A stretch of DNA of 64,000 nucleotides from Lumbricus terrestris (Eukaryota; Annelida; Clitellata; Crassiclitellata; Lumbricidae), in the NCBI GenBank assembly GCA_949752735.1, contig OX457042.1, positions 27,406,478 to 27,470,477 of the forward strand, given 5' to 3'. How positions within the stretch are numbered: the stretch's first letter is position 1; each line of letters opens with the position of its first letter. Shown here piece by piece: positions 37,735-53,122 of the stretch. The notes beneath the pieces are model-generated. The model made no database searches, had not been told where the DNA came from, and saw only the letters and a list, made by a program, of their open reading frames with translations. The position numbers and the translations under genes are program-made.

Positions 37735-40700
37735 TGTGGCGGCACGCCCCGTTCGTCACGGCCTCTCAAATCGTACTTAGGCCAATCCAACATTTCGGTT
37801 ACGACCGGGGAAGATTGTCTTAGCAAGGAAGCCCGGAACTGGGAATATAGTTCCGTCGCGTCGGAATCCACATCTGCCCCGTCCGCGGTCACCGGGGAGG
37901 TAACGACCCGAGCGCCAGGATGGCCAATGCTCGAAACAGGGTCCAATTTTCCACGGGCAGCCGATCCGCGCTTGGAACTCCCTTTTACCGCGACCGCCTT
38001 TGCCTTCTTCCCTACGCGGTCTTCTCTCTTTCGTACCATGTAACAACGAACGGTCGAGGCGCCTTCACTCCCGAGAGGCATGACCTGCGTTTGGCATCCA
38101 GTCGGCCATAGGTAACGGAACCAGTTCCATTCTAGGGGATTTAACCCTATACGAAGTAACGACACAGGCATTGTCTCGTATGCCAACACGACCAATAGGT
38201 CTTTTTCTGGTACCAGGCCTTTAGGGAGACCACCCTTGTATCGCTCGGAGGCGATTAACTTGTACAACGGCCGAACACGCCGAGATCAAAATAGCCAGAA
38301 TACGCGGCGGTTGCCAAGCGCGCGCGATTCTCTATCACTGAGCTTCCTGCACGCTATCCGAAGGAAATGCGTACGGTCGACTCTTTACTTCACTAAACCG
38401 CCGCAACAGGCGTCAACGGTAACTGACTTTTCTATCGCTTCTGTCTCGTGGTCACTGTCAACAGACCAGCATCGCTCCCGTATAGGGGGCTTAAAAATTA
38501 GCTAAGGGGTATACACTTCCTTAACTAAATTAACTTAGGGTAACGAACCGGTAACTGATGCAATTAAAGGGGGCTGTCTAGGCCAGCTGAGTTCTCCTAG
38601 ACAATGCGTACGCGATTTCCCTTGGTCGCGGAAATGCGCTTCTCGGTGACGACAAGCTTTCACCGTTTGCTACCACACGATATTCACCAACAGACGTTAC
38701 AGGGATATTACACTGGGCGTGCTGAGCAGATCAACACCCCGATCGTACAAGTCGGACTACAACTGACAAAGATACACTTCTCGACCGTTACGCTTCCGGT
38801 CTTTCGCGGTTCGGGGAAAACGCCGGTGGCAACCGTATGACGCTTCCGACACGAACTCGAATCACTGATACAGGTCACTGGCTCTCGACGTAGCTAGAGA
38901 GCGCTTGATTCACTGAGCAATATGACACCAACTTTTCGTTATTCGCACAACAACTCACAAAGTTACACTCACCCGACCAGTCGTGGCCGGTATCTACCTT
39001 GGACTTCAACCAACGCTGATCAACGGCGGCTGATATAGCCAAGCGATCGTATCAACAGGCTCTACTACTAGCCGATTCAAAGACCAGAGGTGAAAGGAAA
39101 GATATTCGGTAGTCAAAGAATATCGCAATACACTCGCAGACCTAGGGCACTGCGCGTTGCCCACACAGACTTGTCGGCGGCGGTCGTTTGCTTGACCGCG
39201 GCGCCGCGTAACCGAACTCTACGGGAAAAGACGGGAATAAACTCTTCGCGAGCTTATACCGTCGAAACCCTTCCAGATATCGCTTAACTCTCTTCCGACT
39301 GACTTGTCCCGCTCAACGAGACGTACAATCTGACACCAAGATTGTAAGGATCAGGTAACAATTGACAAAGTTTTCCCGTAAACCGGGTCGTTCGCTATCG
39401 GCCTTCGCGGCGTCAGGCGAAAGATCAGGAAATCGGCTAAGTCCACTTCACGCGCGAGGCGCTTCTTCCAGACTATACAGCCGAAACCGTAACAGGTACA
39501 GACAAACCTCCCACAGAGCAAGTCTTCTACTCGTCGAGATGAACCAGATTGTCGCTTAGTTCAAAACGATTGGACCACAGGATACAAAGTTATTCACGCT
39601 CGCACTTTAGTTGGCGGCCGAGTAGACCGGGGGAACCAAGTTTCGCGTCGGCTAAGTCCACTCACGCGCGAGGCGCTCTCACTAGACTGTAGCGTCGAAA
39701 CCTTAACAGATGCTGACAAACTCTCAACAGGAAAAGTCTTCTACTTGTTCGGGTGAACAAGTTTATCGCTTGGTTCGAAGCGATCCGATCACAGGATACA
39801 AAGTTATTCACGATGACACTTTCGTTGCCGTTATCCTGCGCATCCAGCCTATATTGAGCTCTAATAGGCAGCGCCAAACTGGTAGAGCCTCTACCGTTTC
39901 TCCAGGGACTCCCAGTTACCAACTCTCGGTATATTCACGACCACGCGGACCAGACGGAGGGTTTTGCTCCCGGCCTCGAGTGAATCGGACCACAGGTGAC
40001 AAAGTTATCCAGTGCGCAACTACTTCGTCCGGGCGACCGCTAGGATAGCACGCGAACAGAACAGCAACGCACTTCCGCTACTCTCAAGGCAAACTCACTT
40101 ATTCTGCTTCAGTAATGACTTTGTTCGTATTTGAATACTGTATGCGAAACGTAAGTATATTGTATCAACCTGTGGGCAATCCCTAGCAGGTATATTCAGT
40201 TTCTCGGACGAGGCCTTACCGTTTATCGACGGTTGCGCGCTCGCCTTGGCCGGCCGTGCAGATTGACCGACGCGGGCCGCCGAGGTAACGATTGTCAAAC
40301 TTCTTTCTTTTACGCTGCAAGCACTCAGCGGGTCTGATTTCACACGGCACTGTATGCCAGGAGACAGTTGCAAGTAAGACGGGATGAGCCACCACCAACT
40401 CTCCCTGGTGCGTCGAAGCGGGGCGATGCCCAGTCGGCCGCCGTTCGATCGTCACCGCAGGTAACGTATAACCTTCGCGTGTGCGAATTCGATCCGGATA
40501 CAATATTTCTCGTCAAATTCACCAGAAAGCGTTTGGACACCAACAAACCAACGTAGCAATGTCAATTCAACGGGCCGGGACTGCGTAGAGAGCAATGAAA
40601 CGAACAGAGTTAATATTCATTGCCCATGGAGTAATCGCCATTACTCCACGTATATAGCAGAGCATCGTGTGGCAGGCTTTATTCCACCGGAATATCGCTG

Positions 40701-41191
40701 TCTGCACGCTATGGTTTGGCTTGAAATCGACAATCGGTCTTCCGTATAGAAAAACCGTTATTAATTCGCCAAAAATCCATTTATTGTCGGATCGTCACCA
40801 GGTTTCTTTCTGTCGCCTCCCAAACGACTTCTTCGTAACTTACGCCCTAAATTAACGTTATTGGACCTACCTAGAATTAACTATGGAATTAAAACTAAGA
40901 TTAGCCCTACTCGTACACGCGTTTGAGATGCGGTTTGGCTGTGTTAGGCCTCGCCGTCGATCTCGTCTGCTTCCAGCAACGTTCTGCAGACTCTGACTTG
41001 TCGGTCGCGTTCTAATTGCGTGTGTTTCCGTAGCGCATTTCTGCTAAGGGAAATTATGCCTTACCTATTATTGATTCTAACTAGACGGTTTGGCTGCTTT
41101 AAGAGCGTAACCGTCGCTCCGGCCTTGTATCCAGCTTCAGTTTGACAAGGCAGCCGTTCGGAGTTTATCGTCTTGTGGCCGAAACGCCACA
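37735..41191 (-). repeat. 3' LTR of the retrotransposon, 3,457 bp
   Basis: Begins TGTGGCGGCACGCCCC and ends GCCGAAACGCCACA on the plus strand. I see two differences from the other LTR: one base absent near 38392 and T versus C near 39167. Confidence 0.97.
38754..40010. repeat. Degenerate ~200-bp tandem repeat within the LTR
   Basis: The word ACAAAG(T/A)TA recurs at about 38766, 38953, 39365, 39583, 39797 and 39999, with steps of 187, 412, 218, 214 and 202. The best-conserved pair shares CGGCTAAGTCCACT and GCGCGAGGCGCT 214 bp apart (39435, 39649). Same in the other LTR. Confidence 0.75.
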
Positions 41192-41205
41192 CTCTCCTCC
41201 TCTCC
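41192..41205 (-). promoter_or_regulatory. Polypurine tract
   Basis: On the element strand a 14-base purine run, GGAGAGGAGGAGAG, directly abuts the LTR start TGTGGCG: the plus-strand primer site. Confidence 0.92.
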
Positions 41206-41710
41206 GGCTGATGCGGAGCATCGGGGTCAACTAATCTACGATCTCTTCACGAGATATTTACCCTCCCGTCCCCGGGACTTATCTACCTAGATTTAAGCCC
41301 CTCGGAGGAAAACACTAACACGCTGTCCCCCGATCAAGACAACAGTCACATACAAGTACATAACATCATCCAAAATTTCACAATGCTATGCAATGTAATT
41401 CGATGTAGGCGTTGTTCTCAGCGTGTGTACTCGCTGTTTCTCGCCCATCGTATCCGCAAATTCGCTTTTCTCGTCACGACAGTCATCACTCGAGCTCCAG
41501 TCAACTCGCTCTCGTTTCCACGGCTTCACCTGTAACACGAAACACGAAACAATCTCACGCAGGGCTCTACTTAAGGAGTTTGTCCAACACCCAAAAGTCG
41601 AGTTCCCTTAGATTACTTGTACCAGCTCCACCAAGGAGTCCACTCTTAACGGTACTACAGTGCTCACTCACCGGTAGGTTCTGCGCTACCAAACGTCTGG
41701 CTCACCCAAA

Positions 41711-42310
41711 TCTATGTGATCAAGGCGTTGTCGAGACGCCGAGATCAGAAGTGGGGCCATGTTTACCAACGTTCCACTACCACCAACTTCTATGCGACCA
41801 AGGCGCTGCGAGCCGCCAGAGTCAGAAGTGGGTATCCTTTCACTCACGTCGTTTCAACGACTCTTTTCTCGCGGTAGGGTCTGCACTACCAAATTCACAC
41901 GACCACCAAATCTATCGACCGAGGTGCTACGAGCCACCAGAGTCAGAAGTGGGGTTATTACGTTCACACTCATTCACCGTCAAGTTCACCTCGTTCCCCA
42001 CACCTCTACGCGGTCAAAGCGTTGACGAGACGCCGAGTCCAGAAGTGGAGTACTCCGTTTTCACCGTCAATTCCTTTTTCCGTTCCCCTCATCTCCGTGC
42101 GGTCAGGGCGTCGTTGAGACGTCTAGACCAGAAATGGGGTACTCCATTCTCTGTCATTTCCTCTCTCCGTTTCTCTCGCCAACTAGCGATCAAGGCGCTA
42201 GGAGCCGCCAGGATCAGAAGTGGGGTTACCATCACCGTACGAACCGCTGCACTTTCTCCCTCAAATCTATGGATCAGGACGTTGTCGAGGCGTCGAGACC
42301 AGAAGTGGGG
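41711..42310 (-). repeat. Seven-copy array complementary to the PBS
   Basis: Conserved ~45-bp blocks end at 41756, 41832, 41954, 42050, 42139, 42225 and 42310 (steps 76, 122, 96, 89, 86, 85). On the plus strand each has TCTATG..ATCAAGGCG, a small hairpin and then (A)CCAGAAGTGGGG. On the element RNA strand this is the complement of the element's own PBS. Lies in the 2.3-kb non-coding stretch between the gag-pol stop and the polypurine tract. Confidence 0.88.
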
Positions 42311-43549
42311 TTTCCGTTAACTTCAAAAGAAACGTACAGTCGTACTCGCGTAGGACCTAACACGAATACATAGGCCAACCAAGAAAAACAGGATCGAACC
42401 TACAACAGTTAGCAGTGAGTCCACGGTTCGTTACCAGTAATTCGAACGTAAATTGCCCCTTGAAACGCTAAGCAGTGTCGCGTTTCATATACGATTCATC
42501 AAAAGAAACATAACCATCGTCGACCCGACGATTTCAATAATCTTCGCATTACGCGAACCAACGATCTGTGTCCACTGTATCTTTCCGTGCCGTTCATCGA
42601 CGCTACGCGCCGGCTTCAGGATCAGAGATTTCACACGCGACAAAAGCACTTCAACCCAGATTCGATTAGAGTGCAAGGAACCGTAAAGACAGTTGTAGAG
42701 TGTTCACCAAAACTCCAGGTGCAGGGACGATTACTCAAATCCGTGACCTAACGAGAATCCGCAACCAAGCACTAACATCCAACGCAGATGACGGCATTTA
42801 CGGCGCAAGACCTCAACACCGGAAAGCTTGACTTAATACCCCGCCCGACGTTACCTACGTCCGTCAGCTAGGCAGGCGCAAGACGATCCCAACTACCACC
42901 GGACATTCTCCCCAAGCACTACCTGGCATTTACGGCGCGAGAATTCCACTCACTCTACTGGTAGCTAGCTTCCCTCCTAGACTACCAACCTCAAGTGCCC
43001 CTCTGTCTCGAGACCTAGGCTCCACCCAACCCGTAGGCCGGGGGACCTTAAGAAGAGAAAAGTCGCCACACTATCTCTTCACCTGGGATGTCCGTCCATC
43101 CCATCACCTACCATTAAAAGAAACAGGTGATCAAAACGTAAAGTGACTCAGACTTTGAGTCTTCAGGCAAACTGCACTGAAAGTCCCACCGTGATCAGCG
43201 GTCAGCAGATTCAAAAGAACTCAACGAAACTTCACCAGTCTCAGGAAACAATCGCCATTACGCGAAGATAAGAAACGCCGAGAGCGCATCTCTGATCTTC
43301 TGTGTACCACTGAAATGACAGGCGTATAACTGAAAAGATGTCATCAAAAGGAAACCAAGTACGCTGTCCACCGACAGATTCACAAACCACCGCAATTACG
43401 CGGTGTAGAGACCCAGTTCGCGTCTCTCGCACCACCTGGCCCACACTTGTTGCCAGAACGAAAAGGTATATCATCAAAAAGTAACCGAGGCACTCACATT
43501 TCTCAAACTCACCGCAATTAAGCGGCTGGCTCACCAAAAGCCAACGGCT
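42311..43549 (-). other. Rest of the element's 3' untranslated region
   Basis: Non-coding. Further repeats: GGCATTTACGGCGC at about 42793 and 42927, and ACCGCAATTA(C/A)GCGG-like blocks near 43250, 43385 and 43510 (period about 130), each followed by CATCAAAA. Confidence 0.6.
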
Positions 43550-46500
43550 TCACTGCACGCTTACCCTGCGAGGATAACGCGTACTACGCCGACGGGGACT
43601 TTCGGCGCTGTCCAGTTCCGGAGCGGATGGGGCCGCTATCTCTTCTACAGTCTCGTCGTCGGTGTGGCCACCTTGGGACGAACTGTCTAGACCTTCCTCA
43701 TTGATCACAGTCTCTGTGTCTACGCCAGGCAACCAGCTCTTAGGAGGGTTCCCGTAGAACACTTTTAGTTTGTCCACATGCACAACTAGTGCGTTTGCTC
43801 GAGCGCTTCGTTGGATCCGATACAAGACAGGGCTGATTACCTGTACTACGAGGAACGGTCCCGTGTAAACCTTATTCCATTTGACCTTACTACCGCCTCG
43901 CCGTTGCGGATAGTAATAGTACACCCACGTACCCTGAGGAAACTTGACCGGTTTCACTCGCAAGTCGTACGCCTTCTTCCGGCGCTCGGCGACTCGTCCC
44001 AGCTGAGTCCGTACCAACGAATACGCAAATTCCATCTTTTCCCTCTGCTTCGCGGCATAATCTTCGACGTCAGGGTAGGACGGACGATCGAGATCAGCAA
44101 ATTGGGCAAGAATCAAATCCAACGGCGAATGGTTTTCACGACCAAGAAACAGGAAATTAGGAGTCCGCTGCGTGGCCTCATGCTCAGTAGATCGGTACGC
44201 CGCCATCACGTACGGAAGATGGACGTCCCAATCCTTCTGACATTCGGACACAACTTTACCAAGCAACGAGTTCAGAGTCCGGTGGAAACGCTCGATCATA
44301 CCGTTACCAGACGGATGATACGGTGTCGTACGCACCTTGTCAATCTCCATCCGTTTACATAACTCCTGAAACAACTCTGATTCAAAACAGGGACCTTGGT
44401 CTGTCAAAATCTGTCGCGGCATTCCGAAACGGGAGAACACGTGGTTCATCAAGGTTTCAGCGATTGTCGCAGCATCTTGATTTCTAATAGGCAGAGCTTC
44501 CGCCCACCTAGAGAAATAATCGATCGCAGTCAAAATGTACTTATTCCGGTTATTCGAGACGGGATGAGGACCGGTGATGTCGATCCCCAACCGCTCCATC
44601 GGTTCACCAGTCACGGGACACTGTAAACAACCTTGCCTCGGCGGCTTCTCACGCCGATACCGGGCACACACATCACATCGTTCGCCCCAACGTCGCACAT
44701 CATCTTTCCATGCCGGCCAGTACGCTCTTCGGCGTAACTTCTCTAGACTCTTACGTATTCCGAAATGTCCACCACCAAAGCTACCGTGCGTTAGCTTAAA
44801 CATTTCATGCCGGAGCACGACGGGCACAACCAACTGGTGTCTTTCTGTCTGACCAGTAGTCCCTCGGATCCACTGCCTGAAAAGAACGCCTTGACGAACT
44901 TCCAGTAAATCCCACTGACTCAACACTGTCTTCGCCTCCCCACTCAACGACATCCGCTCTTGCTCGGTCGGCCGATGGCCTGCTTCCTTCCACGCCAAGA
45001 CGGGACCAATTTGTCGATCGGCTAACTGTGCCTTGCGTAACGACTCCGTTGTCCAATCGGTAACCGGACACACGTCTTCACCAGGTGCGGCCGCAACAGG
45101 CCTTGCCTCGGCGACGGGACAGATCCACGCTGCGCTCTCTTCCGCAGCTTCTTCAGTCTCAGGCCCTGCTCCCATTGGACCTCTGGACATCGCGTCCGCG
45201 TTACCGTGTTTTGTACCAGCACGATGAACGATCTCGAAGTCAAACTCCTCTATCGTTTCGAGCCAACGAGCCTGTTGCCCAATGGGTTCCGGAGTCTTCC
45301 GTAGCCATTGCAACGCGGAGGGGTCTGTTCGCAGACAGAATTTCTTACCCAGCAAGTACTGGCGGAACTCTTTCAAAAAGTAGATCACGGCCAATAACTC
45401 GCGGCGTGTAACGTTGTAGTTTCGCTCAGCCGTAGACAGTAACCGACTGGCGTAACAGATAACCCTTTCTTCGCCTTCCTGTACTTGAGACAAGACCGCA
45501 CCTATCGCGTAGGCAGAAGCATCAGTGTCCAAGACATACTGACCCTCATCTTCAGGTAACGCTAGAATTGGAGACGACACCAATCTCCGTTTCAACTCCA
45601 CAAATGCGGTCTGGCACTCTTCAGACCATCGGAACGGGACATTCTTTCGAGTTAACACGTGCAAAGGCTGCGCTACTACCGCAAAGTCATGAATGAATCG
45701 ACGATAATAGGAGCACAAACCGATGAAGGATCGTACTTCACGCAGGTTTTTCGGAACACTCCAGTCCTCGACGGCCCTGATTTTACTCGGGTCCGTCGCG
45801 ACACCTTCCTCACTGAGGATATGACCAAGGAACAGTACCTCTTGCTGCATCAAGTGGCACTTAGACGGTTTCAGTTTAAGATTGTATTCCTGCAACCTCT
45901 TAAACACCATCTCTAAACGTTTCATATGAGTTTCGACGTCACGGGAAAACACGATGATATCGTCTAGGTAGACCAAGCAGATATCATAATTGAGACCAGT
46001 CAACACCAGGTTCATGAGTCGGCAAAACGAGGCGGGACTGTTACAGAGACCGAAGGGCAGCACCTTGAATTGGAAGCTACCTCTTCTCGTAATAAACCCA
46101 GTCTTATGCTTATCTCGCGGGTGCAAGGCCATCTGGTGATAACCTGCCCTGAGATCGAACGTGCTGTACCAACGGGCACCACCGAGAGTATCCAGACTCT
46201 CACGGATTAACGGCAACGGATGCGCGTCTTTCCGGGTCTTCAAATTCAACTGGCGGTAGTCGATGCAAAAGCGCATGTTCCCGTCCTTCTTCTTCACCAT
46301 CACGACATTCGACGCCCACTCCGACATGGAGGGCTCGATAATCCCTTGGGTCAACATATCTTCAACCTGGCGGTCGATTTCAGGTATCATCGCAAGCGGC
46401 TGACGTCTCAGTGTCTGACGAACAGGCTTCTCCTGCTGTGTATCAATCTCGTGCTGAATCACTGACGTAAAACCCAGGTCCTTGTCATCAAGAGAAAACG

Positions 46501-49500
46501 TGGAACGATATCTCAAGATGAGCTCACGTAACCGAACTTTTTCTTCTACCGTTACCGTGCCAGGAACCTCTTCCCACAGTCGCCTCAAGACTGTCTCGGC
46601 CTCCGTGTCGACCGACTGACTAGCCGTCATACATACTCTTGCCGGCGGTCGCCCATGGTGGCGCGACGCTTCCAGAGACGAGCTGGCGCTACTGAGTAAC
46701 TCCACTCGCTCCAACCGACACTCAGTTCCACTACCAACCACCACATCATTGTCGCCAACGTTCACCATTCGAATGTACACCGTCGACTCTTTACCTGTCA
46801 CTAGAGTTCGACCAATCACTAAGCCTCTGGACACTTCAGTAGGCGTAGTCGTCCAAGCTTCCGTGTCAGCTTGCAAATGGGGATACACCACAGACATCGG
46901 GACGTTCAATTCACATCTAGCCGGAACCATGATGTCGCTTTGCACGATAACCCTACGACACATAAGTTCGGTAGACAACTCTTTTAGCGGGATCTTTCTG
47001 TCGCCCAAAAAGACACAACGACCAGAAAAGTCCCATCGAGCCTGATTCACCTCTAACCATGACAATCCCAAGATGACCTCAGTCACTTGGTCCGTAACCA
47101 GACAAGGCAAGGCATACGACTGTTTACCGATACCGAGTCTCAACGTAGCTTCACCGTCTACTCGTATTTCGCTTCCGTTCGCAGCCAGTAACCGCTGACT
47201 GGACGACGTCACTTTACCAGGAGACACAAACGACCGAGGAACCAGGGACAATTCACTACCAGAGTCAAGGAGACAGTTTCGACGTGTCCCCTCCAGGCGG
47301 GCAACAACGTAAGCCATTCGGCTACCGTGAACCATTCGATTCTGTGACGGTTCCTTCGCAGATTCACTCTTCGGAGGCTCCGTGCCTTTCGTATCCTCTC
47401 TCCGCTCAGGCGCAGGCTGCGGACAATCTCTGACCACATGCCCTTTACGTCGGCATCGGAAACATTCAATCTCCGAATTTCGCCAGCGATCCGGCTGAAC
47501 GTCGCGACGTTGAAACGCCGGCCGCTCGCCTCGCCACGGCCCATCCGGTGCCCTACCCGGATTATTCCACCTCTCGTACTGCATCGGTTTTCCTGTCTGT
47601 ACACCAGAATCCTGTCTCATGTTCATCCGACCCAGTTCTCTTGTCAGATTTTCTAACTTCCTCTCGAGGTCCTCCACGCGACGATTCTGCTGTTCACTCG
47701 TCGCTGGGGCCTCTTTCGTCGTCTTCACCCTGCCATGTCTCCGGTCGACCTCCACTCCAGACGTGGCCGGACGACCGTACGCTTCTAACCGGACTGCGTG
47801 TTTGTAAGCCGACTCTAGGTTAACGGGTTCTCGTTCCCTCACCTTCTGAGCCAACTCTTGGTTCAACAACGCATCCATAAACGCGTCGCAAGCGACCGTC
47901 TCGACAACTTCATTCGTGGGTCCTGGGTAGGCTAAGACCATCAAGCGTCTTACCTCCTGCACCACGGCACTCAACGACTCGCTTGGGCCCTGTCGGTAAG
48001 CCCGAAGCTTCACACGATACAAGCTCGTCTGTTCGTCCGAACCGTATCTGGCCTTTAATTTCTCGACAAGGTCTTGCCACGTAACATCTTTCTGGGCTCC
48101 CATGTCCCATAACAACTGCGAAGCTGGTCCTGTCAACGCGCACATCAACTGGTCGGCTCTTTCCTGAGCACTCCAGTTATTGCATCGAGCACATACTTCA
48201 AACTTAGCCAAGAACGCGGCTATGGCTGTCTTACCATCGTACTTTTCTAACTTTATACGAATCCCACGATCAGCCGCTGTCATGCCTTTCTTACAATCAA
48301 CAGGCGACCGTCGTACTCCAACCCTGCGATGACCTCGTCGCGGGCGATCACTGTCGTCACCGGATTCGTCGTCATCTCCTGAACTCGGACTCCCGCGATG
48401 GCCGCTGGGTTTGCTCCTCCCAAGCGCCGTCGCCTTCTTACACGTTCGGCCAGAAGGCCTTATCGGTGAACTGTCTTCTTCACTCGACGGCTCCTTGTCA
48501 GGCTTCTTGGTTAGCCTCGCCGACCGACGCGGTCGCTGCTCTACAGCTTCACGAGCAGAGCGACCAGATTCTCGCACCACCTTACTCTTAGGCACCAGCG
48601 CGGCTGCCTTTTCGTTACCATCCACGTCGTCACTAAATCTCAATGCACGCGGACGTTCACCCGCCTTGTAAGCTTGCCGGCTTACCTTTTTCCGGTCAGG
48701 TGTCATCTTCCGATAATTAATATCAGCCTCGGTAGATGCATCGTCTGACGACATTATCCGTGCCTTGGCCTTTGCCGGTTTCTGGGACACACACGGCAGG
48801 TCTCGATACTCCGTTTCACTGTTAGGCCAAACTTCCATAGGAACCGTAGAGTCACGAACCCGTTCAGGTTTTCTCGTAACCTCTCGTTCACGGTAACTTT
48901 CCGTCAAGCGCCTGACCTCCGGCGGTCCTTGCACGCGAGACCATACTTCCATCGGCACCGTCTCTCTACGGGCCTCTCGATGCTCGGGGTAACTTTCTGC
49001 TCTCGACCGCTGCACTCGCATCGAATCATTGTCTCGTACCATTGGCGCTGGCCGGTCCTCTAACTTCCTCATCATCCACGCCATACCCTGTCGTAAGGCT
49101 AGCAGCTCCGCTTTCACATCAATCTCTTCCGCGTCTCTCCGTCGAGACCGAAATTCACCACCCGCTTCACCCACAGCTGAAGCACGTTCACTTGCCTCCG
49201 AGCGCTGTACTCGAGGACTACGACTCGCTCTCGGATCACGAACCAAATTCTCATCCGACACAACGGGCAACGGTAACTGTATTGTTTCACGTACGTAACC
49301 AGAAGTAACTGTGTTTTGTAATAATCTCGGTCGACTTCCGCCGCCGATTTCAGGGACAGAACGTAGCCAGTTCTCAACTCCAGACGTTGCAGAACGTGGA
49401 CCTCCCACAACAGACTCAGACGAACCAACTCCATCAAGCGTTATCAAATCACCAGTCGAGACTTGTGGCCGAACCTTTGGACGAGCACCAAAATAGTCAA

Positions 49501-50101
49501 CAGGAGGTCGACGGTCAGGCTGCCCGAAATCACCATACGCATCTCGCTCGGCCTCCGAATCGCCTTCGATCCGACCAGACTCACCCGCCGGTACCCTCTC
49601 AGAAGTGTGCTCCCCCGGATCATTTCCGTAGATGACCGGAAAAACCCCACTTCTGGTACCACTTTGTGGCGGCACGCCCCGTTCGTCACGGCCTCTCAAA
49701 TCGTACTTAGGCCAATCCAACATTTCGGTTACGACCGGGGAAGATTGTCTTAGCAAGGAAGCCCGGAACTGGGAATATAGTTCCGTCGCGTCGGAATCCA
49801 CATCTGCCCCGTCCGCGGTCACCGGGGAGGTAACGACCCGAGCGCCAGGATGGCCAATGCTCGAAACAGGGTCCAATTTTCCACGGGCAGCCGATCCGCG
49901 CTTGGAACTCCCTTTTACCGCGACCGCCTTTGCCTTCTTCCCTACGCGGTCTTCTCTCTTTCGTACCATGTAACAACGAACGGTCGAGGCGCCTTCACTC
50001 CCGAGAGGCATGACCTGCGTTTGGCATCCAGTCGGCCATAGGTAACGGAACCAGTTCCATTCTAGGGGATTTAACCCTATACGAAGTAACGACACAGGCA
50101 T
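43550..50101 (-). CDS. gag-pol: Gag-Pol polyprotein, single frame, about 2,183 aa
   Basis: The open frame extends upstream to 50213, but the first ATG is at 50101, inside the LTR; stop TGA at 43550-43552. From that ATG: a basic, arginine/serine-rich N-terminal region; a retrotransposon gag domain at about 615-780; a CCHC zinc knuckle C-F-R-C..H..C at 880-893; aspartic protease LLDSGSE with D946; reverse transcriptase with YLDD at 1378-1381; RNase H starting near 1525 (DTDASAYAIG); integrase zinc finger ending in C1809/C1812; integrase catalytic D1841, D1901, E1937 (D-x35-E); and a C-terminal YTGPF module near 2073 without a chromodomain. No stop or frameshift separates gag from pol, so the enzymes are made as a fusion. 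About 145 residues are LTR-encoded. All catalytic residues are present, so it looks competent. Splicing to a downstream start cannot be excluded. Confidence 0.95.
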   Translation of the reverse strand: MPVSLLRIGLNPLEWNWFRYLWPTGCQTQVMPLGSEGASTVRCYMVRKREDRVGKKAKAVAVKGSSKRGSAARGKLDPVSSIGHPGARVVTSPVTADGADVDSDATELYSQFRASLLRQSSPVVTEMLDWPKYDLRGRDERGVPPQSGTRSGVFPVIYGNDPGEHTSERVPAGESGRIEGDSEAERDAYGDFGQPDRRPPVDYFGARPKVRPQVSTGDLITLDGVGSSESVVGGPRSATSGVENWLRSVPEIGGGSRPRLLQNTVTSGYVRETIQLPLPVVSDENLVRDPRASRSPRVQRSEASERASAVGEAGGEFRSRRRDAEEIDVKAELLALRQGMAWMMRKLEDRPAPMVRDNDSMRVQRSRAESYPEHREARRETVPMEVWSRVQGPPEVRRLTESYREREVTRKPERVRDSTVPMEVWPNSETEYRDLPCVSQKPAKAKARIMSSDDASTEADINYRKMTPDRKKVSRQAYKAGERPRALRFSDDVDGNEKAAALVPKSKVVRESGRSAREAVEQRPRRSARLTKKPDKEPSSEEDSSPIRPSGRTCKKATALGRSKPSGHRGSPSSGDDDESGDDSDRPRRGHRRVGVRRSPVDCKKGMTAADRGIRIKLEKYDGKTAIAAFLAKFEVCARCNNWSAQERADQLMCALTGPASQLLWDMGAQKDVTWQDLVEKLKARYGSDEQTSLYRVKLRAYRQGPSESLSAVVQEVRRLMVLAYPGPTNEVVETVACDAFMDALLNQELAQKVREREPVNLESAYKHAVRLEAYGRPATSGVEVDRRHGRVKTTKEAPATSEQQNRRVEDLERKLENLTRELGRMNMRQDSGVQTGKPMQYERWNNPGRAPDGPWRGERPAFQRRDVQPDRWRNSEIECFRCRRKGHVVRDCPQPAPERREDTKGTEPPKSESAKEPSQNRMVHGSRMAYVVARLEGTRRNCLLDSGSELSLVPRSFVSPGKVTSSSQRLLAANGSEIRVDGEATLRLGIGKQSYALPCLVTDQVTEVILGLSWLEVNQARWDFSGRCVFLGDRKIPLKELSTELMCRRVIVQSDIMVPARCELNVPMSVVYPHLQADTEAWTTTPTEVSRGLVIGRTLVTGKESTVYIRMVNVGDNDVVVGSGTECRLERVELLSSASSSLEASRHHGRPPARVCMTASQSVDTEAETVLRRLWEEVPGTVTVEEKVRLRELILRYRSTFSLDDKDLGFTSVIQHEIDTQQEKPVRQTLRRQPLAMIPEIDRQVEDMLTQGIIEPSMSEWASNVVMVKKKDGNMRFCIDYRQLNLKTRKDAHPLPLIRESLDTLGGARWYSTFDLRAGYHQMALHPRDKHKTGFITRRGSFQFKVLPFGLCNSPASFCRLMNLVLTGLNYDICLVYLDDIIVFSRDVETHMKRLEMVFKRLQEYNLKLKPSKCHLMQQEVLFLGHILSEEGVATDPSKIRAVEDWSVPKNLREVRSFIGLCSYYRRFIHDFAVVAQPLHVLTRKNVPFRWSEECQTAFVELKRRLVSSPILALPEDEGQYVLDTDASAYAIGAVLSQVQEGEERVICYASRLLSTAERNYNVTRRELLAVIYFLKEFRQYLLGKKFCLRTDPSALQWLRKTPEPIGQQARWLETIEEFDFEIVHRAGTKHGNADAMSRGPMGAGPETEEAAEESAAWICPVAEARPVAAAPGEDVCPVTDWTTESLRKAQLADRQIGPVLAWKEAGHRPTEQERMSLSGEAKTVLSQWDLLEVRQGVLFRQWIRGTTGQTERHQLVVPVVLRHEMFKLTHGSFGGGHFGIRKSLEKLRRRAYWPAWKDDVRRWGERCDVCARYRREKPPRQGCLQCPVTGEPMERLGIDITGPHPVSNNRNKYILTAIDYFSRWAEALPIRNQDAATIAETLMNHVFSRFGMPRQILTDQGPCFESELFQELCKRMEIDKVRTTPYHPSGNGMIERFHRTLNSLLGKVVSECQKDWDVHLPYVMAAYRSTEHEATQRTPNFLFLGRENHSPLDLILAQFADLDRPSYPDVEDYAAKQREKMEFAYSLVRTQLGRVAERRKKAYDLRVKPVKFPQGTWVYYYYPQRRGGSKVKWNKVYTGPFLVVQVISPVLYRIQRSARANALVVHVDKLKVFYGNPPKSWLPGVDTETVINEEGLDSSSQGGHTDDETVEEIAAPSAPELDSAESPRRRSTRYPRRVSVQ
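49645..49661 (-). promoter_or_regulatory. Primer binding site, inside the reading frame
   Basis: On the element strand TGGTACCAGAAGTGGGG starts three bases after the LTR end. TGG matches a tRNA 3' CCA; the primer tRNA would end CCCCACTTCTGGTACCA. I do not assign the tRNA. The site is translated as part of SGTRSGV in gag-pol. Confidence 0.88.
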
Positions 50102-53100
50102 TGTCTCGTATGCCAACACGACCAATAGGTCTTTTTCTGGTACCAGGCCTTTAGGGAGACCACCCTTGTATCGCTCGGAGGCGATTAACTTGTACAACGG
50201 CCGAACACGCCGAGATCAAAATAGCCAGAATACGCGGCGGTTGCCAAGCGCGCGCGATTCTCTATCACTGAGCTTCCTGCACGCTATCCGAAGGAAATGC
50301 GTACGGTCGACTCTTTACTTCACGTAAACCGCCGCAACAGGCGTCAACGGTAACTGACTTTTCTATCGCTTCTGTCTCGTGGTCACTGTCAACAGACCAG
50401 CATCGCTCCCGTATAGGGGGCTTAAAAATTAGCTAAGGGGTATACACTTCCTTAACTAAATTAACTTAGGGTAACGAACCGGTAACTGATGCAATTAAAG
50501 GGGGCTGTCTAGGCCAGCTGAGTTCTCCTAGACAATGCGTACGCGATTTCCCTTGGTCGCGGAAATGCGCTTCTCGGTGACGACAAGCTTTCACCGTTTG
50601 CTACCACACGATATTCACCAACAGACGTTACAGGGATATTACACTGGGCGTGCTGAGCAGATCAACACCCCGATCGTACAAGTCGGACTACAACTGACAA
50701 AGATACACTTCTCGACCGTTACGCTTCCGGTCTTTCGCGGTTCGGGGAAAACGCCGGTGGCAACCGTATGACGCTTCCGACACGAACTCGAATCACTGAT
50801 ACAGGTCACTGGCTCTCGACGTAGCTAGAGAGCGCTTGATTCACTGAGCAATATGACACCAACTTTTCGTTATTCGCACAACAACTCACAAAGTTACACT
50901 CACCCGACCAGTCGTGGCCGGTATCTACCTTGGACTTCAACCAACGCTGATCAACGGCGGCTGATATAGCCAAGCGATCGTATCAACAGGCTCTACTACT
51001 AGCCGATTCAAAGACCAGAGGTGAAAGGAAAGATATTCGGTAGTCAAAGAATATCGCAATACACTCGCAGACCTAGGGCACTGCGCGTTGCCCACACAGA
51101 CCTGTCGGCGGCGGTCGTTTGCTTGACCGCGGCGCCGCGTAACCGAACTCTACGGGAAAAGACGGGAATAAACTCTTCGCGAGCTTATACCGTCGAAACC
51201 CTTCCAGATATCGCTTAACTCTCTTCCGACTGACTTGTCCCGCTCAACGAGACGTACAATCTGACACCAAGATTGTAAGGATCAGGTAACAATTGACAAA
51301 GTTTTCCCGTAAACCGGGTCGTTCGCTATCGGCCTTCGCGGCGTCAGGCGAAAGATCAGGAAATCGGCTAAGTCCACTTCACGCGCGAGGCGCTTCTTCC
51401 AGACTATACAGCCGAAACCGTAACAGGTACAGACAAACCTCCCACAGAGCAAGTCTTCTACTCGTCGAGATGAACCAGATTGTCGCTTAGTTCAAAACGA
51501 TTGGACCACAGGATACAAAGTTATTCACGCTCGCACTTTAGTTGGCGGCCGAGTAGACCGGGGGAACCAAGTTTCGCGTCGGCTAAGTCCACTCACGCGC
51601 GAGGCGCTCTCACTAGACTGTAGCGTCGAAACCTTAACAGATGCTGACAAACTCTCAACAGGAAAAGTCTTCTACTTGTTCGGGTGAACAAGTTTATCGC
51701 TTGGTTCGAAGCGATCCGATCACAGGATACAAAGTTATTCACGATGACACTTTCGTTGCCGTTATCCTGCGCATCCAGCCTATATTGAGCTCTAATAGGC
51801 AGCGCCAAACTGGTAGAGCCTCTACCGTTTCTCCAGGGACTCCCAGTTACCAACTCTCGGTATATTCACGACCACGCGGACCAGACGGAGGGTTTTGCTC
51901 CCGGCCTCGAGTGAATCGGACCACAGGTGACAAAGTTATCCAGTGCGCAACTACTTCGTCCGGGCGACCGCTAGGATAGCACGCGAACAGAACAGCAACG
52001 CACTTCCGCTACTCTCAAGGCAAACTCACTTATTCTGCTTCAGTAATGACTTTGTTCGTATTTGAATACTGTATGCGAAACGTAAGTATATTGTATCAAC
52101 CTGTGGGCAATCCCTAGCAGGTATATTCAGTTTCTCGGACGAGGCCTTACCGTTTATCGACGGTTGCGCGCTCGCCTTGGCCGGCCGTGCAGATTGACCG
52201 ACGCGGGCCGCCGAGGTAACGATTGTCAAACTTCTTTCTTTTACGCTGCAAGCACTCAGCGGGTCTGATTTCACACGGCACTGTATGCCAGGAGACAGTT
52301 GCAAGTAAGACGGGATGAGCCACCACCAACTCTCCCTGGTGCGTCGAAGCGGGGCGATGCCCAGTCGGCCGCCGTTCGATCGTCACCGCAGGTAACGTAT
52401 AACCTTCGCGTGTGCGAATTCGATCCGGATACAATATTTCTCGTCAAATTCACCAGAAAGCGTTTGGACACCAACAAACCAACGTAGCAATGTCAATTCA
52501 ACGGGCCGGGACTGCGTAGAGAGCAATGAAACGAACAGAGTTAATATTCATTGCCCATGGAGTAATCGCCATTACTCCACGTATATAGCAGAGCATCGTG
52601 TGGCAGGCTTTATTCCACCGGAATATCGCTGTCTGCACGCTATGGTTTGGCTTGAAATCGACAATCGGTCTTCCGTATAGAAAAACCGTTATTAATTCGC
52701 CAAAAATCCATTTATTGTCGGATCGTCACCAGGTTTCTTTCTGTCGCCTCCCAAACGACTTCTTCGTAACTTACGCCCTAAATTAACGTTATTGGACCTA
52801 CCTAGAATTAACTATGGAATTAAAACTAAGATTAGCCCTACTCGTACACGCGTTTGAGATGCGGTTTGGCTGTGTTAGGCCTCGCCGTCGATCTCGTCTG
52901 CTTCCAGCAACGTTCTGCAGACTCTGACTTGTCGGTCGCGTTCTAATTGCGTGTGTTTCCGTAGCGCATTTCTGCTAAGGGAAATTATGCCTTACCTATT
53001 ATTGATTCTAACTAGACGGTTTGGCTGCTTTAAGAGCGTAACCGTCGCTCCGGCCTTGTATCCAGCTTCAGTTTGACAAGGCAGCCGTTCGGAGTTTATC

Positions 53101-53122
53101 GTCTTGTGGCCGAAACGCCACA
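49665..53122 (-). repeat. 5' LTR of the retrotransposon, 3,458 bp
   Basis: Same sequence as 37735-41191 apart from two differences. It supplies the promoter and the first part of the gag-pol frame. Confidence 0.97.
52558..52587 (-). promoter_or_regulatory. Candidate LTR core promoter with palindrome
   Basis: On the element strand TATATA (52587-52582) is followed by a perfect inverted repeat TGGAGTAAT..ATTACTCCA (52558-52579, 4-nt centre). If this is the TATA box, U3 is about 0.56 kb and the leader before the gag-pol ATG about 2.4 kb. Also present at 40627-40656. Confidence 0.4.

Follow-up and report, generated by a model that had tools for sequence, protein, structure and literature searches.

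An array of tRNA-mimicking hairpins complementary to the primer binding site of a Lumbricus terrestris retrotransposon suggests an unusual way of placing the primer

The placement of a primer tRNA on a structured primer binding site (PBS) and the contact between the two ends of the genomic RNA are known mainly from the yeast elements Ty1 and Ty3 and from a few retroviruses. The present analysis deals with an animal element, a long terminal repeat (LTR) retrotransposon of the annelid Lumbricus terrestris that carries before its 3' LTR an array of seven short units complementary to its own PBS; it lies in a stretch of 64,000 nucleotides (assembly GCA_949752735.1, contig OX457042.1, positions 27,406,478 to 27,470,477 of the forward strand), here called the window, in a host genome of 1.06 Gb. 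As far as the available text of two articles goes, the D-arm of the Ty3 primer interacts with RNA in U3 (PMC5371799), the primer tRNA touches both RNA ends and cyclisation of the RNA has been proposed (PMC5371799, PMC11381356), and in vivo work fails to support a role of the PBS in dimerisation and packaging (PMC11381356); the latter source also names the cyclisation sequences CYC5 and CYC3 of Ty1. Among retroviruses, the accessible parts of the relevant papers describe the PBS of human T-cell leukaemia virus type 1 (HTLV-1) as buried in a stable local hairpin, a genuine obstacle to annealing for which helpers are needed (PMC13366004), and the genomic RNA of human immunodeficiency virus type 1 (HIV-1) as having by its PBS a tRNA-like element that mimics part of the primer tRNA (PMC11181671). 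In the linker of the plant Sirevirus elements (Ty1/copia), palindromic repeats and, upstream of the 3' LTR, motifs in multiple copies are reported in the portion of the article available (PMC2829016). Among the papers listed by full-text searches of an open-access library, judged by titles and abstract openings, no element with repeated PBS complements was found; bipartite PBSs, cyclisation words and PBS hairpins are already known, and the multi-copy array of PBS complements is a variant of these.

The seven units stand between 41711 and 42310, 0.5 kb before the 3' LTR (Table 1), with unit-to-unit spacings of 77, 121, 96, 89, 86 and 85. A preliminary description, made from the letters alone, placed the PBS on the minus strand at 49661-49645, where it is in fact found, starting 3 nt past the end of the 5' LTR; it also spoke of seven blocks bearing the PBS complement, and the word CAGAAGTGGGG (plus strand) is indeed exact in four of the seven units and present with at most one mismatch in all of them. 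The sole further exact copy of this word in the window is the PBS on the other strand, and a profile made from the seven units has a single eighth match in the window, again the PBS (49657-49639, minus strand, E=0.0064). In sense RNA the unit word reads ACCCCACUUCUG and complements PBS nt 7-17. The longest exact match to the 17-nt PBS is 11 nt in unit 1 and 13 nt in unit 7, in neither case equalled by any of 1000 dinucleotide shuffles, and it is 13 nt in the 2.36-kb 3' region, where none of 300 shuffles reaches this value and the largest gives 12. The match between units and PBS is unlikely to have arisen by chance; since the seven units are paralogues, it counts as one event and not as seven. 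A 16-base match of copy 7 to the PBS region, also put forward in the preliminary description, stands in part: unit 7 does match ACCAGAAGTGGGGTTT, with 13 of the 16 bases within the PBS, and the TTT of this word falls outside the PBS and is variable among family members.

The search of the genome for the expected tRNA 3' end leads to two places. One of them (L108) is a complete tRNA-Leu gene with the anticodon TAA, the only complete gene with such a 3' end by exact pattern; the 3' end of this tRNA-Leu(UAA), taken with CCA, is complementary to the PBS in 17 of 17 positions, and the array, antisense to the PBS in the element RNA, resembles the 3' end of the primer tRNA as had been proposed. The acceptor stem of the gene has a G.U pair (ACCAGGA/TTCTGGT), and a first pattern demanding ACCAGAA gave no match, the gene having ACCAGGA. 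The other place (L109) is a 3' half of tRNA-Leu with the CCA included in the genomic sequence, perhaps a reverse-transcribed fragment.

A query of the genome with the array gives 139 candidates, the best 40 of which were scored (85-100% identical). The sample consists of 20 arrays and 20 expected PBS places, with five more pairs taken from 21 elements found through a relative, the protein P0005; the PBS is present in 17 of the 20 expected places and in all five added ones, which together with the window element makes 23 elements, 21 with the exact 17 nt and two with one substitution. A count of array copies in other family members, already envisaged in the preliminary description, yields seven units in 15 arrays, six in five, five in three and eight in three (26 arrays, 174 units), the units being counted by their core with at most two substitutions and those with a worse core, with CTCG at the core start or at the edge of a piece being excluded. 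Among 29 further loci that were fetched and have a pol identity of 99%, several of them copies belonging to a single tandem, 28 contain the unit 7 word with at most one mismatch. Over the 174 units, agreement with the PBS complement is 83-100% at each of the 11 core positions, a range flattered by the selection of cores with up to two substitutions, whereas at the six positions on the side of the CCA complement it is 0-64%; PBS nt 7-17 are therefore covered by the array and nt 1-6 stay free. Two core variants are common, both of them C to T changes (30 and 24 units) with which wobble pairing to the PBS is still possible; inherited for the most part with units 4 and 5, they count as few events. 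In 20 arrays aligned to the window without core selection, the mean majority identity is 0.967 for the core, 0.906 for the remainder of the unit and 0.883 for the spacers, a core-to-spacer contrast that stems mainly from units 5-7. In viral contigs, a first search for relatives found none and an alignment-based search found one, the metagenome element L079; the PBS 17-mer has two matches there (L080 and L081) and the strict unit pattern none.

Directly 3' of the PBS-complementary word, the sense RNA of the units has a hairpin, which was analysed in 81 distinct unit sequences from 21 arrays, unit sequences shorter than 40 nt having been dropped beforehand. Several alleles of its outer 4-bp stem exist (GATC/GATC, GGTC/GACC, AGTC/GACT, GACT/AGTC and others); read as sense RNA, the stem has standard pairs in 316 of 324 cells and pairs throughout in 73 of 81 units, as against a mean of 47 and a maximum of 56 in 2000 shuffles. 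These shuffles ignore the relatedness of the units, which is retained when the partner is slid by one to three columns, and full pairing is then seen in no unit for the sense strand and in one for the antisense strand. The outer stem has 33 A.C and 2 G.T in plus-strand letters, which correspond in the sense RNA to 33 G.U and 2 A.C and point to the sense RNA as the folding strand. To judge from their sequences, the units are sense-RNA hairpins with compensatory changes in the outer stem. No match to the array was found by scanning with Rfam and ARAGORN.

In sense RNA, the 3' arm of the hairpin can also pair with the D-arm of tRNA-Leu (GUGGUUAAGGCGUUG, nt 15-29, or with a 1-nt shift), in 15 of 15 positions with wobbles allowed in units 1, 2, 4 and 6 and in 14 positions in unit 5. 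The likeness was first spotted by eye and then tested on the host gene. Of 3000 shuffles, none gives a 15-position match for unit 1, one does so for unit 2 and 4 do so for unit 6, and such a match is reached by 3 of 5000 random hairpins of the same form and by none of 2449 element windows outside the array; moreover, the four columns of the outer stem are compatible with tRNA pairing in 324 of 324 cells (81 units). The same D-arm words are present in other tRNAs too, so that the match is no proof of specificity.

Another complement of the PBS, in two arms, lies close to it: CACTTCTG is found 10-37 nt downstream of the PBS in 23 of 23 elements and is followed by GGTACC in 22, L020 having AGTACC. 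Both arms are invariant in 20 aligned elements (L012, L018 and L020 being too short were omitted), compared with 55% of the next 80 positions, and the arms are constant around a loop of variable length. This local anti-PBS can, in predicted folds, fold the PBS shut: judged by eye, CACTTCTG pairs with the PBS in 22 of 23 elements, and L024 pairs through GGTACC. In the window element, the PBS zone alone has 13.9 of 17 nt predicted to be paired locally, and in a cofold with the array 12.7 of 17 PBS nt are paired to the array; ten shuffled arrays give 0-3.2 nt and nine of ten other element segments 0-0.3 nt. The cofold, restricted to PBS zone and array zone, was made for eight elements of at most 18 prepared, and seven of the eight favour the array over the local fold.

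The PBS is nearly invariant within the array family, and the nine sampled elements with a different PBS, eight loci of the same genome and the metagenome element L079, show no such array in the stretch read; their PBSs were placed by eye and by the motif at the LTR end, with a 3' LTR start not fixed in all. Five same-genome elements with a PBS of the TGGCG(A/G)CGAGG type and L079 lack an anti-PBS array within the part of the 3' region that was read (2.3 kb, and 486 nt in L079): no core word occurs at one mismatch and one at two mismatches, in L098, the longest exact match is 5-7 nt in the 3' stretch, and the local match is 3-4 nt, or 7 in L079. Likewise, three elements with a third PBS, TGGTCCCAGCCAGTGGGG, have no array in the 3' stretch read, with a local match of 4-5, a 3'-stretch match of 6-7 and one two-mismatch word each. 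Equally good PBS matches in shuffled sequences, or relatives with a different PBS that keep the array words, had been named in the preliminary description as outcomes that would speak against it; the shuffles fail to match the PBS as well, and these nine elements lack the words in the stretch read. L103, L105 and L107 on one side and L115 and L116 on the other have similar flanks around PBSs that differ (TGGTCCCAGCCAGTGGGG and TGGTACCAGAAGTGGGG); a PBS switch may have occurred naturally within one family.

With Ty3, the element shares the Ty3/gypsy type and, as far as the available accounts go, a 5' PBS for the tRNA 3' end combined with a distant 3' element (PMC5371799, PMC11381356). The 5' PBS is here complementary to the 3' end of the host tRNA-Leu(UAA) with CCA (17/17), and the 3' region is complementary to the D-arm of the same tRNA (15/15 in units 1, 2, 4 and 6, 14 in unit 5, and not in units 3 and 7); complementarity of the 3' region to the T arm and acceptor 3' strand is lacking, since the unit word has the sequence of the tRNA 3' strand itself. 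In the part of the Ty3 work available, the 3' segment hybridises to the tRNA itself, whereas here there are 5-8 units whose T/acceptor part is the tRNA's own sequence, complementary to the PBS. The CYC words of Ty1 are single copy, and CYC5 lies beside the PBS and not within it, unlike the array, which is multi-copy and complementary to the PBS itself; the likeness, as far as the accessible description of CYC5/CYC3 extends, lies in complementary words near the 5' and 3' ends, seen here as 11-13 nt of exact match and in the cofold compared with controls, one of the ten control segments (in the LTR) pairing too. As in HTLV-1, the PBS can be folded, here by prediction, into a local hairpin; in contrast to the array family, the available text on this virus makes no mention of distant anti-PBS copies (PMC13366004). 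The genomic RNA mimics part of its own primer tRNA, as does that of HIV-1 in the portion of the article at hand, where the element differs in being an anticodon-arm mimic that binds LysRS and belongs to the 5'-end PBS segment (PMC11181671). Multi-copy motifs before the 3' LTR, and palindromic repeats, are shared with the Sirevirus linker, but the motifs there, in the text available, are copies of the polypurine tract and CGG-CCG boxes and not PBS complements (PMC2829016).

On the best-supported reading, to which a probability of about 0.48 is assigned, the array would be a cis-acting RNA element of primer placement that base-pairs with the PBS and may keep hold of the primer; it would represent the bipartite and cyclisation elements of Ty3 and Ty1 in a multi-copy form. 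In packaged RNA, the 3' array would pair with the PBS and bring the RNA ends together; once docked, it would leave PBS nt 1-6 (TGGTAC) unpaired, where the CCA end of the tRNA could land, and a tRNA-Leu held through its D-arm in a neighbouring unit would displace the array strand from the PBS in a hand-over. The presence of several units would raise the odds of one being available. A complete capture-and-hand-over device, whose units would hold tRNA-Leu by the D-arm, dock on the PBS through the copy of the tRNA 3' strand, open the local fold from its GGGG loop and pass the primer on by strand exchange at TGGTAC, is a doubtful proposition; a lock plus an opener is made plausible by the HTLV-1 PBS hairpin, described in the accessible text as a real barrier needing helpers (PMC13366004). 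As for the overall interpretation in the preliminary description, the antisense array and the tRNA likeness are supported, and the hairpins, the D-arm complementarity and the local anti-PBS had been missed; the functional roles suggested there, such as end-to-end RNA circularisation, placement of or competition with the primer tRNA and a dimerisation site, are conjectural.

Several observations weigh against primer placement by the array. The D-arm complement is the hairpin arm itself, so that both pairings are mutually exclusive, and units 3 and 7 have no D-arm match at the hairpin-arm site, their best matches anywhere, 12 positions in unit 3 (equalled by 61 of 100 shuffles) and 13 in unit 7 (2 of 100), being at another place; the two columns of the internal loop fit the tRNA in 69 and in only 54 of 81 units. 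For the inner stem, an excess of pairing is seen on the antisense strand (328 of 405 cells, shuffle mean 311, maximum 322) but not in the sense RNA (333 cells, with a shuffle mean of 330), and the fold energies of single units fail to separate the strands (z from -2.4 to +0.4 for sense and from -2.9 to +0.8 for antisense). In the cofold, the LTR segment 51001-51650, one of the ten control segments, pairs with the PBS as well (11.7 nt), and L013 is the one element of eight that favours the local fold; the spacers that follow units 2 and 4 equal the units in conservation (0.987 and 0.960). Some PBSs of other families are also buried in predicted folds, with 13 of 17 nt in L079 and 11 in L101 as against 14 in the window, and their downstream sequence is without an exact anti-PBS copy; burial is therefore not special in itself, the exact anti-PBS copy is. 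Exact sites of the Leu PBS number 1313 in the genome (control 0), and none of ten such sites, hand-picked from places listed on contig C1, several of them for short tandem spacing, has an intact local anti-PBS, L111 having a near copy; the local anti-PBS is accordingly family-specific within that sample.

The main rival to primer placement is a pure masking of the PBS combined with end-to-end contact only, in which the PBS would stay base-paired with array and local anti-PBS until assembly, as a protection from premature priming or from 3' tRNA fragments, which are known to pair with PBSs, and the D-arm match would be a by-product of the hairpin. This is unlikely rather than implausible: the local anti-PBS is there in 23 of 23 elements, local pairing of the PBS gives way, for the most part, to pairing with the array once the latter is included in the cofold, and the PBS of HTLV-1, in the text available, likewise lies in a stable hairpin hindering annealing (PMC13366004), but the D-arm match is rare in random hairpins of the same form (3/5000) and masking has no obvious need for five to eight distant copies beyond the local one. 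A packaging or Gag-binding signal, namely a hairpin bound by Gag or by another protein that also recognises the PBS stem or the tRNA end, with an incidental PBS pairing, would suit the repeated hairpins with variable spacers and constant tail as well as the single CCHC zinc knuckle of the polyprotein; it is improbable, leaving unexplained that the constant tail is the PBS complement and ends at PBS nt 7.

Tandem repeats within LTR elements are well known, and the units could also derive from passive capture, by which reverse transcription would have placed a copy of tRNA or PBS sequence in the 3' region, to be multiplied there as a functionless tandem repeat. The preliminary description had listed such a capture of reverse-transcribed tRNA sequence among its possibilities, and it would agree with a unit number ranging from 5 to 8 and with the genomic tRNA-Leu 3' half with CCA at L109; it is disfavoured, to the point of being very improbable, by the compensatory changes and by a core that is the best-kept part of the unit, better kept than the spacers, and, apart from the anti-PBS word and the D-arm complement, no tRNA run was noticed in the units. 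Drosophila gypsy carries a Su(Hw) array, and units that are conserved, palindromic and present in several copies near the 3' LTR might in the same way form a DNA-level repeat, as an array of protein-binding sites or an insulator; this has the slimmest chance among the alternatives, because a DNA site would be expected to keep its letters, whereas the outer-stem alleles change on both sides together (GATC/GATC, GGTC/GACC, AGTC/GACT) and the wobbles are one-sided, 33 to 2, for sense RNA. Self-priming as in Tf1 was rejected by reasoning only, in that a cut after the local anti-PBS would part the PBS from the downstream template.

The two LTRs of the element have only two differences, one substitution and one indel, and GTCC at both flanks of the insertion represents the target duplication. 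According to Pfam, the 2215-aa frame, which opens within the 5' LTR and runs on through the PBS, contains in order gag, one CCHC zinc knuckle, protease, reverse transcriptase, RNase H and integrase, the protease match being weak (E=0.0036, below its cut-off). The order gag, protease, reverse transcriptase, RNase H and integrase is a defining feature of Ty3/gypsy elements and is found here with this weak protease match, along with TG..CA LTRs, target duplication, a PBS after the 5' LTR and a polypurine tract before the 3' LTR. The PBS of L079 is likewise read in frame (GDEDG), and the relative P0005, on its protein sequence only, contains WYQKWG, which would be the TGGTACCAGAAGTGGGG PBS in another frame. 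Tandem multimers occur at C13:5831372-5878625 and C1:40819943-40879380, with five and six array copies at a spacing of about 11.66 and of 11.7-11.9 kb, a regularity as expected for elements sharing LTRs. The 3' region of the element also has a second set of small hairpin-like repeats, of the CCGCAATTACGCGG type, at 43254, 43392 and 43514. A protein encoded by the 302-aa plus-strand open reading frame over the array was considered and rejected, with no Pfam match at E 0.01 and five of six unit spacings not multiples of three.

Table 1. Coordinates of the features of the element within the window.
Feature	Position	Strand	Basis or remark
Whole LTR retrotransposon	37735-53122	minus	Ty3/gypsy-like; young
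5' LTR, 3458 bp, TG...CA	49665..53122	-	LTR alignment
PBS TGGTACCAGAAGTGGGG, 17 nt	49645..49661	-	complements host tRNA-Leu(UAA) 3' end + CCA exactly
Local anti-PBS, CACTTCTG (49600-49607) + GGTACC (49590-49595), sense orientation	49590..49607	-	can fold back on PBS (predicted)
Single open frame, 2215 aa, gag-pol	43550..50197	-	open reading frame list and Pfam matches
Array unit 7, anti-PBS word + hairpin	42265..42310	-	word search, unit profile, stem analysis
Array unit 6, anti-PBS word + hairpin	42180..42225	-	word search, unit profile, stem analysis
Array unit 5, anti-PBS word + hairpin	42094..42139	-	word search, unit profile, stem analysis
Array unit 4, anti-PBS word + hairpin	42005..42050	-	word search, unit profile, stem analysis
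Array unit 3, anti-PBS word + hairpin	41909..41954	-	word search, unit profile, stem analysis
Array unit 2, anti-PBS word + hairpin	41788..41833	-	word search, unit profile, stem analysis
Array unit 1, anti-PBS word + hairpin	41711..41756	-	word search, unit profile, stem analysis
Polypurine tract GGAGAGGAGGAGAG, abutting 3' LTR	41192..41205	-	sequence
3' LTR, 3457 bp	37735..41191	-	LTR alignment

If the capture-and-hand-over device were true, it would be the first multi-copy bipartite PBS with a built-in tRNA mimic. In this animal family, a foldable PBS is naturally combined with a D-arm complement and with five to eight anti-PBS hairpins (26 arrays examined), and primer placement is thereby open to study by comparison and with short RNAs.
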